Shown piece by piece: positions 3,181-30,261 of a stretch of 64,000 nucleotides of DNA. The notes below the pieces were generated by a model. It was not told the DNA's origin, did no database searches, and worked only from the letters and a program-made list of their open reading frames with translations. This stretch comes from Lachnospiraceae bacterium (GTDB taxonomy: Bacteria; Bacillota; Clostridia; Lachnospirales; Lachnospiraceae). A program made the translations under genes and the position numbers. Numbering within the stretch: position 1 is the stretch's first letter; every line of letters begins with the position of its first letter. The stretch is taken from NCBI GenBank assembly GCA_015057635.1, contig SVEB01000109.1, positions 31,907 to 95,906 on the forward strand, read 5' to 3'.

Positions 3181-4869
3181 GTGACGTTGAATACGATTGA
3201 TGCTGCGCTATTGCAGAAGATGTTTCTTGCAGGGGCGAAAAGTATCGAAGCGAAAAAGGAATACATCAATGAACTGAATGTATTTCCGGTTCCAGATGGT
3301 GATACCGGAACCAACATGACATTAACAATTATGTCGGCGGCGAAGGAAGTTTCAGCTATTGAGAATCCAACGCTTGAGACACTAGCAAAGGCAATCAGCA
3401 GCGGTTCATTAAGAGGTGCAAGAGGTAACTCAGGTGTTATCCTGTCCCAGTTATTCAGAGGATTTACAAAAGAAGTGAAAGAACATTCTGAAATTAATGT
3501 AACCATTATGGCGAATGCATTTGCTAAGGCTGTTGAGACAGCATACAAAGCCGTTATGAAACCAAAGGAAGGAACAATCCTTACTGTAGCGAAGGGCGGC
3601 GCTGAGCGTGCAGCAGAATTAGTGTCAGAAACAGAAGATTTGGTGTACTTTGGTGCAGAAGTAATAAAACGTATGGAAGAAGTTCTTGCATACACACCAG
3701 AATTATTACCAGTATTAAAAGAAGCAGGAGTAGTGGACTCTGGCGGACAGGGTCTGTTAGAAGTTGTCAAGGGCGGATATGATGCAATGCTTGGCAAAGA
3801 AGTTGACTTTGAGATCGTGCCTGCAAGTGCTGGAGTAAAAGCCAATGTAAGCTCCGAGAATATTGCAACAGCGGATATTAAATTTGGTTATTGTACAGAA
3901 TTTATCGTAATGCTTGAAAAAGAATATACAATAGAAACCGAACATGAATTCAAAGCTTATTTAGAATCCATCGGTGACTCCATCGTAGTTGTTTCGGATG
4001 ACGATATCGTAAAGGTTCATGTACATACCAATGATCCTGGTCTTGCCATCCAAAGAGCGCTTACTTATGGTTCTTTAACCCGTATGAAGATTGACAATAT
4101 GCGTGAAGAGCATAATGAAAAGTTAATCAAAGATGCGGAAAATAAAGCAAAGCAGCAGAAAGAAGAAGAATTACAGGCTGCTGAAGTGAAGAAAAAAGAA
4201 GAACCTAGAAAGCCTGTTGGTTTTGTAGCAGTATCCATTGGTGAAGGTATTAATGAAATCTTTAAAGGTCTTGGTGTTGATTACCTGATCGAAGGCGGTC
4301 AGACAATGAACCCAAGTACAGAAGATATGTTAAACGCAATCGATCATGTGAATGCGGATACCATCTTCATTTTACCAAATAACAGCAATATCATCTTAGC
4401 CGCTAACCAGGCAAAGGATCTGACAGAGGATAAGAAGATTGTTGTTATTCCATCTAAGACGGTTCCTCAGGGTATTACAGCGATTATCAATTATGTCTTT
4501 GATAAGTCGGCTGAAGAAAATGAGGCTAGAATGATTGAAGAGATGGGCAGAGTTAAGACTGGTCAGGTTACTTATGCAGTACGTGACACATCCCTTGATG
4601 GAAAAGAAATCAGACAGGGCAATATCATGGGTATTGGTGATAAGGCAATCCTTTCTGTTGGAACTGAGATTAAGGAAACTACCATTGATTTAATCAATCA
4701 GTTAGTTGATGATGATTCTGAATTAATCAGTTTATACTACGGTGCTGAAACTAGCGAAGAGGAAGCGAATGAAATCGCTGAGATCATCTCCGATCAGTAC
4801 CCAATGGTAGACGTTGAAGTCCATATGGGCGGTCAGCCAATCTACTATTATGTATTATCTGTTGAATAG
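3181..4869 (+). CDS. DAK2 domain (YloV/FakA-like) fatty acid kinase subunit family
   Basis: NVFPVPDGDTGTNMTLT, SLRGARGNSGVILSQLFRG, VDSGGQGL motifs; asp23-yloV gene order. Confidence 0.93.
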   Translation: MTLNTIDAALLQKMFLAGAKSIEAKKEYINELNVFPVPDGDTGTNMTLTIMSAAKEVSAIENPTLETLAKAISSGSLRGARGNSGVILSQLFRGFTKEVKEHSEINVTIMANAFAKAVETAYKAVMKPKEGTILTVAKGGAERAAELVSETEDLVYFGAEVIKRMEEVLAYTPELLPVLKEAGVVDSGGQGLLEVVKGGYDAMLGKEVDFEIVPASAGVKANVSSENIATADIKFGYCTEFIVMLEKEYTIETEHEFKAYLESIGDSIVVVSDDDIVKVHVHTNDPGLAIQRALTYGSLTRMKIDNMREEHNEKLIKDAENKAKQQKEEELQAAEVKKKEEPRKPVGFVAVSIGEGINEIFKGLGVDYLIEGGQTMNPSTEDMLNAIDHVNADTIFILPNNSNIILAANQAKDLTEDKKIVVIPSKTVPQGITAIINYVFDKSAEENEARMIEEMGRVKTGQVTYAVRDTSLDGKEIRQGNIMGIGDKAILSVGTEIKETTIDLINQLVDDDSELISLYYGAETSEEEANEIAEIISDQYPMVDVEVHMGGQPIYYYVLSVE

Positions 4870-4877
4870 AATGGAAT

Positions 4878-5117
4878 AGAGAATAGAATCGAAGACCTCC
4901 CGCGCAAGAGCCGGGCGATTTTCCCGCTTTGTGTTCCGAATGTTCGGACGCATGAGCGGACAAAAATGCCGCGGAATCCTTGATTATCAGACAGGAAGAC
5001 ACTGTCTGCTACTCAAGGACTCCGCGGTATTTTTGTTCGTCATGAGCCGGACATTCCGGAACACAGAGCGGGAAAATCGCCCGGCTCTTGTGCGGGAGGT
5101 CTTCGATTCTATTCTCT
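4878..5117. repeat. ~240-bp near-perfect palindrome (single long hairpin)
   Basis: Left arm AGAGAATAGAATCGAAGACCTCCCGCGCAAGAGCCGGGCGATTTTCCCGC... mirrored by ...GCGGGAAAATCGCCCGGCTCTTGTGCGGGAGGTCTTCGATTCTATTCTCT; apical stem CAGACA-GGAAGACAC-TGTCTG. Confidence 0.95.
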
Positions 5118-5324: not shown

Positions 5325-5353
5325 TTGACAGTCTAAAGTGGAAACGCTATAAT
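5325..5353 (+). promoter_or_regulatory. perfect consensus sigma-A promoter TTGACA-N17-TATAAT
   Basis: TTGACA at 5325-5330, TATAAT at 5348-5353, 17-bp spacer. Confidence 0.85.
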
Positions 5354-5409: not shown

Positions 5410-5502
5410 ATGAGCGAGAAAGAATTATCCAAGAAAGCAATGCGCACAACTATTTTATCAGTGGCTGCAGTTGTGGCTATGATTCTTGTAATCTGGCTGT
5501 AG
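5410..5502 (+). CDS. 30-aa small membrane peptide MSEKELSKKAMRTTILSVAAVVAMILVIWL
   Basis: ATG with purine-rich RBS (AAAAGGGGGATTAAG), charged N-terminus then one hydrophobic segment; flanked by consensus promoter and terminator; too short for the ORF track. Confidence 0.6.
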   Translation: MSEKELSKKAMRTTILSVAAVVAMILVIWL

Positions 5503-5798: not shown

Positions 5799-7835
5799 AT
5801 GCAGTTAACAGATGGACTAGGTAAGATTAAGGGAATCGGTGAGAAGACCGAGAAATGTTTTACGAAGGCTGGAATCTACAATATTCTCGATTTAATAGAA
5901 TATTATCCGAAAGGATATCAGACGTATGAGCTGCCGGTGCCGATCGGAAGTTTACGGGAAGGTGAGATTGCAGCAATTGAGGCGAGCGTTGCTACGGTTC
6001 CGGAAGGAAAGAAGATCAGAGGGCTTCAGATGATTACATGCCGGGTGAAGGATCCAAGCGGATCGATCTTCATTACCTGGTTTAATCAGCCATATTTAAA
6101 GAGTACGCTTCGTATGGGAAGCCGGTATATATTCCGCGGGAAGGTGACGAGAAAGAATGGTCAGATTTCAATCGCTCAGCCGAAGATTTATAAGCAGGAG
6201 GAATACCGACCGCTGTTAAATCTGATGCAGCCAACGTATGCCTTAACAGATGGGCTTACGAATAATCAGATTTCCAAGGCTGTTGATTTTGCCCTGCATA
6301 ACGTGGAGATGCCGGAAGAGTTTCTGCCTGCAAGAATCCGAAAAGAATATGATCTGGTGAAACGTAAGGCTGCTCTTGCAGAGATTCATTTTCCGAAGTC
6401 AAAGGACACGATGCGGGAAGCAAGAAAACGTCTGGTATTTGATGAATTCTTTATTTTTACCCTTGTTTTAAATCAGCTCAAGGAGAATAAGAAGACCTCT
6501 TATAATGATTTCTCGATCGTATGTAAACAGGAATGTGAGGATATGATCGGGAAACTGCCGTATGAGCTTACGAACGCGCAGAAGAAGGTTTGGAATGAGA
6601 TCAAGCAAGATATGACATCCAATAAGGTGATGAATCGTCTGGTGCAGGGTGACGTAGGCTCCGGTAAGACAATCTTAGCGGTACTGGGGCTTATGATGAC
6701 GGCATTGAACGGCTATCAGGGGACGTTAATGGTTCCGACTGAAGTTTTAGCAAAACAGCATTATGAATCGCTGATTGAGAATCTGGAGCCATATGGAATC
6801 CGGATTGAGCTTTTAGTCGGTTCTATGACCGCGAGCGAGAAGAAGAAAGCTTATAAACGAATTGAGGCGCATGAGGCGGATATTATCGTGGGTACCCATG
6901 CTCTTATTCAGGAGAAGGTTAATTATGATAAGCTTGGTCTTGTTATCACCGATGAACAGCACCGTTTCGGTGTAAAGCAGCGAGAGATGCTGTCTGTAAA
7001 GGGGGAAAAACCACATGTGCTTGTTATGAGTGCGACTCCGATCCCAAGAACGCTCGCAATTATTTTATATGGGGATCTTGATATTTCCGTATTGGATGAA
7101 CTTCCGGCCAACCGCCAGCCAATCAAAAACTGCGTGGTGGATACCGGATATCGGGATACCGCGTATCGCTTTATTGAAAAACAGGTATACGAAGGAAGAC
7201 AGGCATATGTAATCTGTCCGATGGTAGAGGAAAGCGAGAATATGGAAGCGGAGAATGTAATCGAATATACAGAGAAGCTTCGTATGGTATTAGGCGATCA
7301 GATCACGATTGAGTATCTGCACGGCAAGATGAAACCGAAAGAGAAGGATGCGATTATGGAGCGTTTCTCAAAAGGTGAAATCAAGGTACTCGTATCCACT
7401 ACGGTAGTCGAAGTTGGTGTTAATGTGCCGAATGCGACTGTTATGATGATCGAGAATGCGGAGCGATTCGGATTGGCACAGCTTCACCAGTTAAGAGGAC
7501 GTGTCGGACGAGGCGGTCATCAGTCTTATTGTATCTTAGTAAGCGGCTCCAGAAACAAGGAGACGATGGCGCGTCTTGACATCTTAAATCGTTCCAACGA
7601 TGGATTTTATATTGCAAGCGAAGACTTAAAGTTAAGAGGACCGGGCGATATGTTCGGCGTACGCCAGAGCGGTGATTTAGAGTTCCGCCTGGGAGATATC
7701 TATACGGATGCAACCGTTCTTAAGAATGCGAATGATGCCGCAAAAAATCTGACAGAGAAAGAATATGAAGAAATTATCAGCCATTATCCGGCACTGTTAG
7801 ATAAAATCAACAATTTTGCATCGGGAACTTTGTAA
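5799..7835 (+). CDS. recG: ATP-dependent DNA helicase RecG
   Basis: RLVQGDVGSGKT, DEQHRFGV, MSATPIPRTLA, QLRGRVGRG motifs; wedge domain N-terminal. Confidence 0.97.
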   Translation: MQLTDGLGKIKGIGEKTEKCFTKAGIYNILDLIEYYPKGYQTYELPVPIGSLREGEIAAIEASVATVPEGKKIRGLQMITCRVKDPSGSIFITWFNQPYLKSTLRMGSRYIFRGKVTRKNGQISIAQPKIYKQEEYRPLLNLMQPTYALTDGLTNNQISKAVDFALHNVEMPEEFLPARIRKEYDLVKRKAALAEIHFPKSKDTMREARKRLVFDEFFIFTLVLNQLKENKKTSYNDFSIVCKQECEDMIGKLPYELTNAQKKVWNEIKQDMTSNKVMNRLVQGDVGSGKTILAVLGLMMTALNGYQGTLMVPTEVLAKQHYESLIENLEPYGIRIELLVGSMTASEKKKAYKRIEAHEADIIVGTHALIQEKVNYDKLGLVITDEQHRFGVKQREMLSVKGEKPHVLVMSATPIPRTLAIILYGDLDISVLDELPANRQPIKNCVVDTGYRDTAYRFIEKQVYEGRQAYVICPMVEESENMEAENVIEYTEKLRMVLGDQITIEYLHGKMKPKEKDAIMERFSKGEIKVLVSTTVVEVGVNVPNATVMMIENAERFGLAQLHQLRGRVGRGGHQSYCILVSGSRNKETMARLDILNRSNDGFYIASEDLKLRGPGDMFGVRQSGDLEFRLGDIYTDATVLKNANDAAKNLTEKEYEEIISHYPALLDKINNFASGTL

Positions 7836-17372: not shown

Positions 17373-18185
17373 TTGACACCTAAAGTTGTAATTGATGCCG
17401 GCAATGGAGGATCAGACACCGGTGTTGTCTATGAAGGCAGGTATGAGAAAAATGATAACCTGGATTTGGCCCTTGCTGTTGGAGAAATCCTGCAGGCAAA
17501 TGGCATAAATGTAGAATATACAAGGGAAGACGATCGTGACCAATCGGAGCTTCTGCGCGCACGGTATGCGAATGAGTCAGATGCTGTGCTGTTTGTGTCG
17601 TTTCAGCGAAATGCATCACAGAATCCGAATGAGGGCAGCGGGGTACAGGTAATTGTCTATGACGAGAAGAGTAAAGCAAGGGATTTAGCAGAGAATATTA
17701 CAAAGAGTCTGGCTGATATCGGATTTAAGAATAATGGCGTTACCTATCGGAAGGATATTGATGTCTTAAGGAAAACGAAGATGCCGGCAATGATGGTTTT
17801 GACCGGTTATATCGACAATGACAGGGATAATGAACTGTATGACAGGAATTTCAATCAGATTGCAGATGCGATCGCAGATGATATATATGAAAAGTTGACA
17901 GGCAAGGAGTTAGCAGTAGTACCGCAGTATCAGCTCCCGCCGGGATCAGAGGTGAGCGAAAGTATCCGCTACCGTGTTCAGGTCGGACTATTTTCAAATT
18001 ATAACAATGCGACGAGGGCAGCATCCCGCTTAAAGGCACTTGGGTATCCGGTTGACATCGTAAGGAAGGATCCATATTATGCAGTTGTGGTCGGTGAGTT
18101 CGGGGATCTGGCAGAGGCAAACGATGTAGAAACGGATTTAAAGATGCTTGGATATGACACACTCATTATTATGGTTGAGGTATAA
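17373..18185 (+). CDS. N-acetylmuramoyl-L-alanine amidase with C-terminal SPOR-like domain
   Basis: VVIDAGNGGSDTG, TREDD, C-terminal YRVQVGLFSNYNNATRAASRLKALGYPVDIV; likely TTG start behind GAGGGGG rather than the listed GTG at 17346. Confidence 0.88.
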   Translation: MTPKVVIDAGNGGSDTGVVYEGRYEKNDNLDLALAVGEILQANGINVEYTREDDRDQSELLRARYANESDAVLFVSFQRNASQNPNEGSGVQVIVYDEKSKARDLAENITKSLADIGFKNNGVTYRKDIDVLRKTKMPAMMVLTGYIDNDRDNELYDRNFNQIADAIADDIYEKLTGKELAVVPQYQLPPGSEVSESIRYRVQVGLFSNYNNATRAASRLKALGYPVDIVRKDPYYAVVVGEFGDLAEANDVETDLKMLGYDTLIIMVEV

Positions 18186-18191
18186 AAAAAT

Positions 18192-18277
18192 GTCAGAAAG
18201 AAAAATCCGGGAGGCAGAACGGAATTTTTCTTTCTGACTTTTCTTTTTTTGCTTTCTGATAAAAAATATCAGAAGGC
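18192..18277 (+). terminator. two tandem hairpins after the amidase gene
   Basis: GTCAGAAAGAAAAATCCG/CGGAATTTTTCTTTCTGAC then GCTTTCTGATA-AAAAA-TATCAGAAGGC. Confidence 0.7.
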
Positions 18278-18326
18278 AAAAAAAGAAAAAATAATAATAA
18301 GAATCTGGTATAATAAGTGCTGGAAC

Positions 18327-29435: not shown

Positions 29436-29442
29436 GAATTTA

Positions 29443-29549
29443 GGGGAGGTCAGCGTGAGCCTTCGCATGGCGCCGCAGCCGATATGTGGAGGCTGAACGG
29501 ATGCACGAGCGGACACCGTAAGGCCGTTGTCTTCGACTCTCAGACAGGA
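29443..29549 (+). repeat. degenerate half-copy of the 4878-5117 palindromic element
   Basis: CGGATGCACGAGCGGACA and TCAGACAGGA match CGGACGCATGAGCGGACA and TCAGACAGGA with identical 33-nt offset between GAGCGGACA and TCAGACAGGA; left boundary approximate. Confidence 0.6.
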
Positions 29550-29556
29550 TATGATA

Positions 29557-30261
29557 TTATTTTTTGGTTAAGAGCAGATGATGAAAGAAGGCGATTTCCT
29601 GGAATGCAGGGATGGTGCTGACGCGGGATTCAAGGGCAAGCATGTTTTGTTGCCAGGCAGGATCGGACTGGATATCCTGATTTTGCTGGAGATCCCAGAA
29701 GGTACGCATGCCGAAAGTAGTCGTAAGTGTCAGGGAAGGAGCCCATTCACATATATTTGTATCTTCATAGTAGGAGATGGCACCAAATTGGGCAGATTGT
29801 CCGCAGTTACCGTCTAACAGGGCATTTGCATGATCGAACTGATTGAGAAGAACGGCCATCTGCATGACTCTTCCGGCTCGATTATGTTTTAGGATGGACA
29901 AAATGCCATCTGGTTTCAGAAGACGGGCAAATTCCTGTACAATCTCCGGACGTTCTTTTGGAGCATACTCTAATACATTATGACAGAGAATCGCGTCGAA
30001 TGATTCGGATGGAAGACCTTTTAGAACGGAAAGGCTTCCTTCAAGCTGGATATAATCATGAGCCATAAAACGTTCCTTTAACATATCCGCATTCGGTTCA
30101 ACAGCCGTTACTTCATTATCTTCTGCAAAATGATCTGCTGTAATCCCTTTCCCGCTGCCAAAATCCAATATCTTTTTATTATGTAAAAAATCAAGCTGTG
30201 TCCAGGTCATCTTCTTTTGTAATTGCTCCCATACAGGGATTGATAAATTCCAATATGTCAT
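29557..30261 (-). CDS. class I SAM-dependent methyltransferase
   Basis: KKILDFGSGKGITADHFAEDNEVTAVEPNADML, FDAILCHNVLEYAPKERPEIVQEFARLLKPDGILSILKHN; start at internal ATG with AAAGGGGAA RBS. Confidence 0.9.
   Translation of the reverse strand: MTYWNLSIPVWEQLQKKMTWTQLDFLHNKKILDFGSGKGITADHFAEDNEVTAVEPNADMLKERFMAHDYIQLEGSLSVLKGLPSESFDAILCHNVLEYAPKERPEIVQEFARLLKPDGILSILKHNRAGRVMQMAVLLNQFDHANALLDGNCGQSAQFGAISYYEDTNICEWAPSLTLTTTFGMRTFWDLQQNQDIQSDPAWQQNMLALESRVSTIPAFQEIAFFHHLLLTKK

Follow-up and report, generated by a model that had tools for sequence, protein, structure and literature searches.

The closest described systems are intrinsic terminators, dispersed intergenic repeats and palindromes whose two arms change together. 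YPAL (RU-2) of Yersinia is an intergenic palindromic repeat of 168 bp that is present in up to about 100 copies and is described as a single repeated sequence with target duplications of 3-26 bp (PMC2229807, PMC2267715). REPs are 20-40 bp long, carry GTAG or CGTC tags and are linked to RAYT transposases (PMC3733652). Co-evolution of palindrome arms has been described in the mitochondrial palindromes of nematomorphs (PMC6649704), and template switching has been published as a mechanism by which co-changing arms can arise (PMC8794818). The hairpin family described here, one copy of which lies downstream of a fakA/yloV-like gene in a Lachnospiraceae bacterium, belongs with the known dispersed stem-loop repeats and terminators. 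We found no description of a comparable Lachnospiraceae hairpin family in the open-access literature, and a comparison of the palindrome region with Rfam gave no family above the gathering threshold and only microRNA hairpins below it.

The window, i.e. the whole stretch of 64,000 nucleotides that was analysed, contains a palindrome that begins 8 nt past the stop codon (4867-4869) of a gene that we refer to as fakA and whose product matches the FakA model NF038248 below that model's cut-off (Table 1). The palindrome is real and far exceeds chance: its ungapped outer arms of 78 nt each are 88% complementary with 84 nt between them, and the + strand RNA of 4878-5117 folds into a single hairpin with an MFE of -209.9 kcal/mol compared to a mean of -83.6 in shuffled sequences (z = -24.9), with 0/200 dinucleotide shuffles folding as well. 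An initial sequence-only reading, which had proposed a near-perfect 240-bp palindrome folding into one continuous hairpin, is thus borne out on both points by arm complementarity and fold. The same reading had proposed a loop of 9 nt; G4994, however, forms a pair with C5002, which leaves a terminal loop of 7 nt (GAAGACA, 4995-5001). It had also noted the lack of a T-run, which is correct for the end of the hairpin and incorrect for its interior, where the inner stem lies between an A-tract and a T-tract. Finally, its suggestion that arm differences become G-U wobbles on the + strand fits the fakA copy, in which the - strand RNA folds less well (-191), and fails for the family as a whole (see below). 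Between the fakA stop codon and the 12/12 promoter match, a search for terminator candidates gave none other than the long hairpin. Behind this promoter, a 30-aa ORF (MSEKELSKKAMRTTILSVAAVVAMILVIWL, 5410-5502) has a start codon that is conserved in the sister species and is without family match. Elsewhere in the window, at 18184-18304, overlapping AT-rich inverted repeats form a chain.

Table 1. Features of the hairpin locus and of a second, partial copy, with positions in the window
Feature	Position	Strand	Basis
fakA/yloV-like gene (DAK2 domain fusion protein YloV, 562 aa), upstream of the hairpin	3181..4869	+	TIGR03599, 635.8 bits, above cut-off
Whole long hairpin, 240 nt	4878..5117	+	Palindrome and fold
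Left outer arm, copy-specific sequence	4878..4933	+	56 aligned columns
Conserved directional family core	4934..5062	+	Model R1, 142.1 bits
A-tract before the inner stem	4962..4966	+	Sequence; conserved across copies
Inner variable stem, 5' side, different in each copy	4967..4978	+	
Conserved apical stem CAGACAG / CTGTCTG with 7-nt loop	4988..5008	+	
Inner variable stem, 3' side	5018..5029	+	
T-tract TTTTTGTT, terminator-like, directly after the inner stem	5030..5037	+	
Right outer arm, complement of the left one	5063..5117	+	Arm pairing and fold
Sigma-70 promoter match (12/12), 208 nt 3' of the hairpin, kept in the sister species	5325..5353	+	
recG (ATP-dependent DNA helicase), next large gene	5799..7835	+	
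Relic: left half of another copy, right arm missing	29442..29562	+	Profile match 29498-29549, E 2e-8

The sequence had suggested a dispersed multi-copy element, and this is confirmed by copy searches of the own genome and of a sister genome. With the palindrome as query, the own genome yielded 48 matches (the best 40 of 242 candidates were scored). A covariance model built from 28 cores and applied genome-wide, with a scoring limit of 150 per genome, detects in the own genome (G000) at least 150 copies and in the sister genome (G001), an uncultured Lachnospiraceae MAG (CALZIE01) of the same genus, at least 148. These numbers are lower bounds from two draft assemblies; moreover, several contigs (C82 and C86 in G000; C4, C46, C253 and C303 in G001) start inside copies or no more than some 30 nt away from them, and therefore the true copy numbers are probably higher. 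The family is absent from all three other genomes of the genus in the covariance model search. In a 397-genome family sample, searched with stricter filters and with the best eight candidates per genome scored, the own genome was the sole match, and searches of phages, plasmids and IMG/VR were without match. The relic in the window, which directly follows a terminator T-run and GAATTTAGGGG, is a decayed or truncated copy.

Detailed comparisons were made on copies in genome stretches that were picked for hits in G000 and partly so in G001. The median hairpin length is 220 nt in G000 and 212 nt in G001, with about 95-98 base pairs (145 copies). Each copy combines a shared and a private part. The shared part is a conserved core of about 129 nt, which in the sense direction consists of TTCCGAATGTTCGGACGCATGAGCGGACAAAAA - variable stem - CTTTGACTATCAGACAG - loop - CTGTCTGCTATTCAAAG - variable stem - TTTTTGTTCGTCATGAGCCGGACATTCCGGAA and which has a direction by virtue of conserved bulges, mismatches and wobble positions; because of the conserved bulges, an ungapped palindrome scan misses family copies. 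At the fakA site, only about 4933-5062 matches most other copies. The private part comprises the outer arms and the inner stem, which match within their own copy only. The outer arms have a median length of 44 nt, are about 92% complementary to each other and mostly have nothing in common between copies, with the exception of orthologues and a few relatives such as the neighbouring copies L197 7370 and 8450. The T-tract that follows the inner stem has on average 6.1 T in 8 positions, and of the 145 copies, 115 have more T in it than in the antisense tract, 28 have the same number and two have fewer. Judging from these elements, the A-tract, GC-containing stem-loop and T-tract of the core resemble a bidirectional intrinsic terminator.

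Additional sequences recur around the palindrome. In about 39/135 copies, a second small hairpin (TCACAATGCGTTTC-loop-GAAACGCATTGTGA) is found immediately 3' of the big palindrome (e.g. L143:3567, L197:15439 and L181:5615); this hairpin varies with compensation and a CACTAG-type motif often comes after it. Many copies also have recurrent words just outside the left arm (AGACGGAC, GCCTCACTAGTAG) and outside the right arm (GTTTGGTG), and these may possibly be further parts of the element.

The copies have a preferred position relative to genes. With gene context scored using mechanically called ORFs of at least 120 aa, a same-strand gene lies upstream in 92/108 classifiable copies, 56 of which are codirectional (++) and 36 convergent. 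In these 92 copies the hairpin begins a median of 18.5 nt after the stop codon, and at most 30 nt after it in 69; one copy is found about 20 nt after a tRNA-Leu gene. Family copies display both a T-tract after a stem and a location at the end of a transcription unit, as is characteristic of terminators. The sequence-only reading had overlooked this one-way placement behind genes, as well as the terminator-like core inside the hairpin and the private nature of the arms. The remaining 14 copies in -- and two in divergent (-+) context count against a reading as gene-end terminators.

Comparison with the sister genome bears on whether the family spreads by transposition. Directly after its fakA, the sister carries a hairpin that shares the core but differs in its inner stem and, for the most part, in its outer arms, stem and arms again each being self-complementary; this orthologous hairpin with diverged, still complementary arms speaks against the recent mobile insertion that the sequence-only reading had considered. 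Among 26 copies that are syntenic on both flanks, 15 have a counterpart in the sister and the other 11 correspond to unfilled sites, a ratio that is biased because hits partly guided the choice of the sister stretches. The unfilled sister sites #6, #9, #32, #44, #46 and #68 have an ordinary stem-loop and T-run, as read from the sequence, after the same gene, which at #9 is the tRNA-Leu gene. Similarly, the three other genomes of the genus are without a long hairpin after fakA, and plain terminators are present there in G004 and G002. The terminator at site #44 (L191:7763-7863, G001) has an apex like the CAGACAG...CTGTCTG inner hairpin and is possibly a solo inner module of the family, and the copy at site #5 (L156:10569-10768, G001) has lost the whole inner hairpin by deletion, its outer arms being paired around TCGGACGCATGAGCGG. 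The idea that the outer arms represent the stem of an ancestral terminator found no support in a permutation test (7 sites, p = 0.12), although site #68 looks similar.

A non-autonomous mobile element of the MITE or YPAL type, which would transpose into gene ends or dyad-symmetric sites, be tolerated by the host and have only incidental terminator activity, could account for dispersed copies with a common core, for the 11/26 syntenic sites that are unfilled in the sister and for the similar arms of the neighbouring L197 copies, and YPAL targets also adjoin dyad symmetry (PMC2229807). However, near-identical copies are not found, the best within-genome core identity being 94%, and most arms are private, so that a moved unit would have to regenerate its arms. 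Moreover, neither a clean empty site nor a target duplication was seen among the unfilled sister sites, where divergence of the intergenic regions is too great for an insertion point to be placed, and a search for Y1 transposases gave no matching enzyme: they number 2 in the own genome, 0 in the sister and 13 in a genome without the element. Taken together, we consider this explanation rather doubtful.

The arms of a copy diverge in concert. Across 18 pairs of orthologous outer arms, the two arms of a copy are 92.1% identical, compared to 66.4% between species, and 149 columns are changed on both sides versus 80 with a mismatch in one genome, with the alignment of the diverged arms being uncertain for some pairs. 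Covariation is 0.285, whereas shuffles give 0.082 and sliding gives no more than 0.066; 97.9% of the cells are paired, and 143 cells are changed on both sides compared to 36 in shuffles. These orthologous arms, which have diverged and still pair, and the covariation agree with the initial proposal that the fold is maintained while the sequence changes, and compensatory covariation is also what a structured RNA displays.

The arms could owe their complementarity mainly to selection for an RNA hairpin that functions in mRNA 3'-end protection, as an RNase III site or as a regulatory RNA, with ordinary compensatory mutations restoring pairing. In addition to the very strong covariation, the location of the copies in 3' untranslated regions is in favor of this explanation, and the core folds better as sense RNA in 112/127 copies and contains conserved U.G and G.U pairs. 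This stability of the sense RNA together with the wobble-compatible asymmetries speaks for RNA-level selection in the core, which is clearly under sequence constraint. Data on the outer arms and the inner stem, however, count against this explanation. If restoration occurred mainly via G-U intermediates, transitions would dominate, but the double changes in the arms comprise 59 transitions to 90 transversions, close to the ratio of 562:771 at fourfold-degenerate sites of the flanking genes (divergence 45%), and this points away from the G-U path. The variable inner stem also contains little wobble: among the seven inner pairs that vary most, 96 cells are changed on both sides, and just 5 of them are wobble and 2 unpaired. 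In the outer arms of 135 copies, A.C mismatches exceed G.T mismatches on the sense strand (234 vs 135), the opposite of the G-U excess over A-C expected for a structured RNA; part of this excess lies within 15 nt of the core and it persists at 15-59 nt (139 vs 89), where it is driven by left-C/right-A pairs. Moreover, the outer arms fold better as antisense in 91/127 copies. Selection for G-U pairs in the outer arms is, therefore, unsupported, and G-U pairs do not serve as the sign of RNA maintenance that they had initially been taken to be. In total, the ratio of transitions to transversions, the rare wobble and the excess of A.C over G.T point to DNA-level copying between the arms, and we regard RNA selection as the main cause of arm complementarity as unlikely. 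Selection for pairing that tolerates no mismatch would likewise give co-divergence of the arms.

An assembly or inverted-duplication artefact is hardly credible. Both genomes are draft assemblies, that of the sister being a MAG, and some of their contigs terminate within copies, but orthologous hairpins occur in independent assemblies, where their matching arms differ and they have long unique flanking sequences on either side.

Combining the data on position, core and arms, we suggest with somewhat better than even confidence that the fakA hairpin is a copy of a lineage-specific gene-end element that has a terminator core and private arms kept matched mostly by DNA-level arm copying. Specifically, (i) the core would function as an intrinsic, largely bidirectional terminator for the gene ending just upstream, here fakA, (ii) the long hairpin would replace the plain terminator found at this place in related genomes, (iii) one arm would serve as the DNA template for the other through template switching or hairpin-templated repair in the quasi-palindrome, and (iv) both arms would drift together while selection would hold the conserved core sequence. 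The right outer arm is located past the T-tract, and paired outer arms are therefore not accounted for by termination alone. More tentatively, a DNA-level process may continually rewrite one arm from the other at about 150 or more gene-end palindromes. In this scenario, every terminator would be accompanied by a private palindrome that drifts fast, new copies might form their arms out of local sequence, and the covariation would be largely mutational rather than selective.

Homologues of SbcC and SbcD are present, and long palindromes should therefore be harder to keep; the absence of SbcCD as a reason for their survival is ruled out by the same observation. A RAYT/Y1 transposase as the driver was also discarded, given that Y1 transposases do not correlate with the element across the genus, and a search for an enzyme linked to the spread, in which Y1 transposases were the only class covered, identified none. 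That SbcCD homologues co-exist with about 150 or more palindromes that are long and near-perfect calls into question the rule of rapid loss for such sequences. The family also provides in the order of a hundred replicate loci at which to ask whether RNA selection or arm-to-arm DNA copying lies behind paired substitutions, a question that bears on the use of covariation as evidence for RNA structure. Finally, a family of long hairpins would take the place of ordinary terminators across a genome.

Compared to known systems, the hairpin family is similar to intrinsic (rho-independent) bidirectional terminators in that its copies follow stop codons and a tRNA gene and have an A-tract, a stem-loop and a T-tract, and in that ordinary terminators stand at several unfilled sister sites. 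It differs from these terminators, the stems of which are roughly 10-20 bp, in that its stems are about 100 bp, its copies are repeats with a conserved core and its arms run far past the T-tract. YPAL/RU-2 shares with the family the intergenic location, the palindromic structure, a similar size, dyad symmetry and the association with upstream genes; unlike YPAL, the family has large copy-private parts, no target duplication was found in it, and it occurs in another lineage. REP and BIME elements are likewise abundant, intergenic, palindromic and near gene ends, but the hairpins are about 220 nt, no GTAG or CGTC tag was noticed at their ends, and Y1 transposases are uncorrelated with them. Lastly, the arms co-change and stay matched as in the nematomorph inverted repeats (PMC6649704) and in template-switch hairpins (PMC8794818); whereas those cases concern mitochondrial coding genes or RNA genes, the hairpin family described here is found at about 150 or more intergenic sites in a single bacterial genome and is built around a common core.
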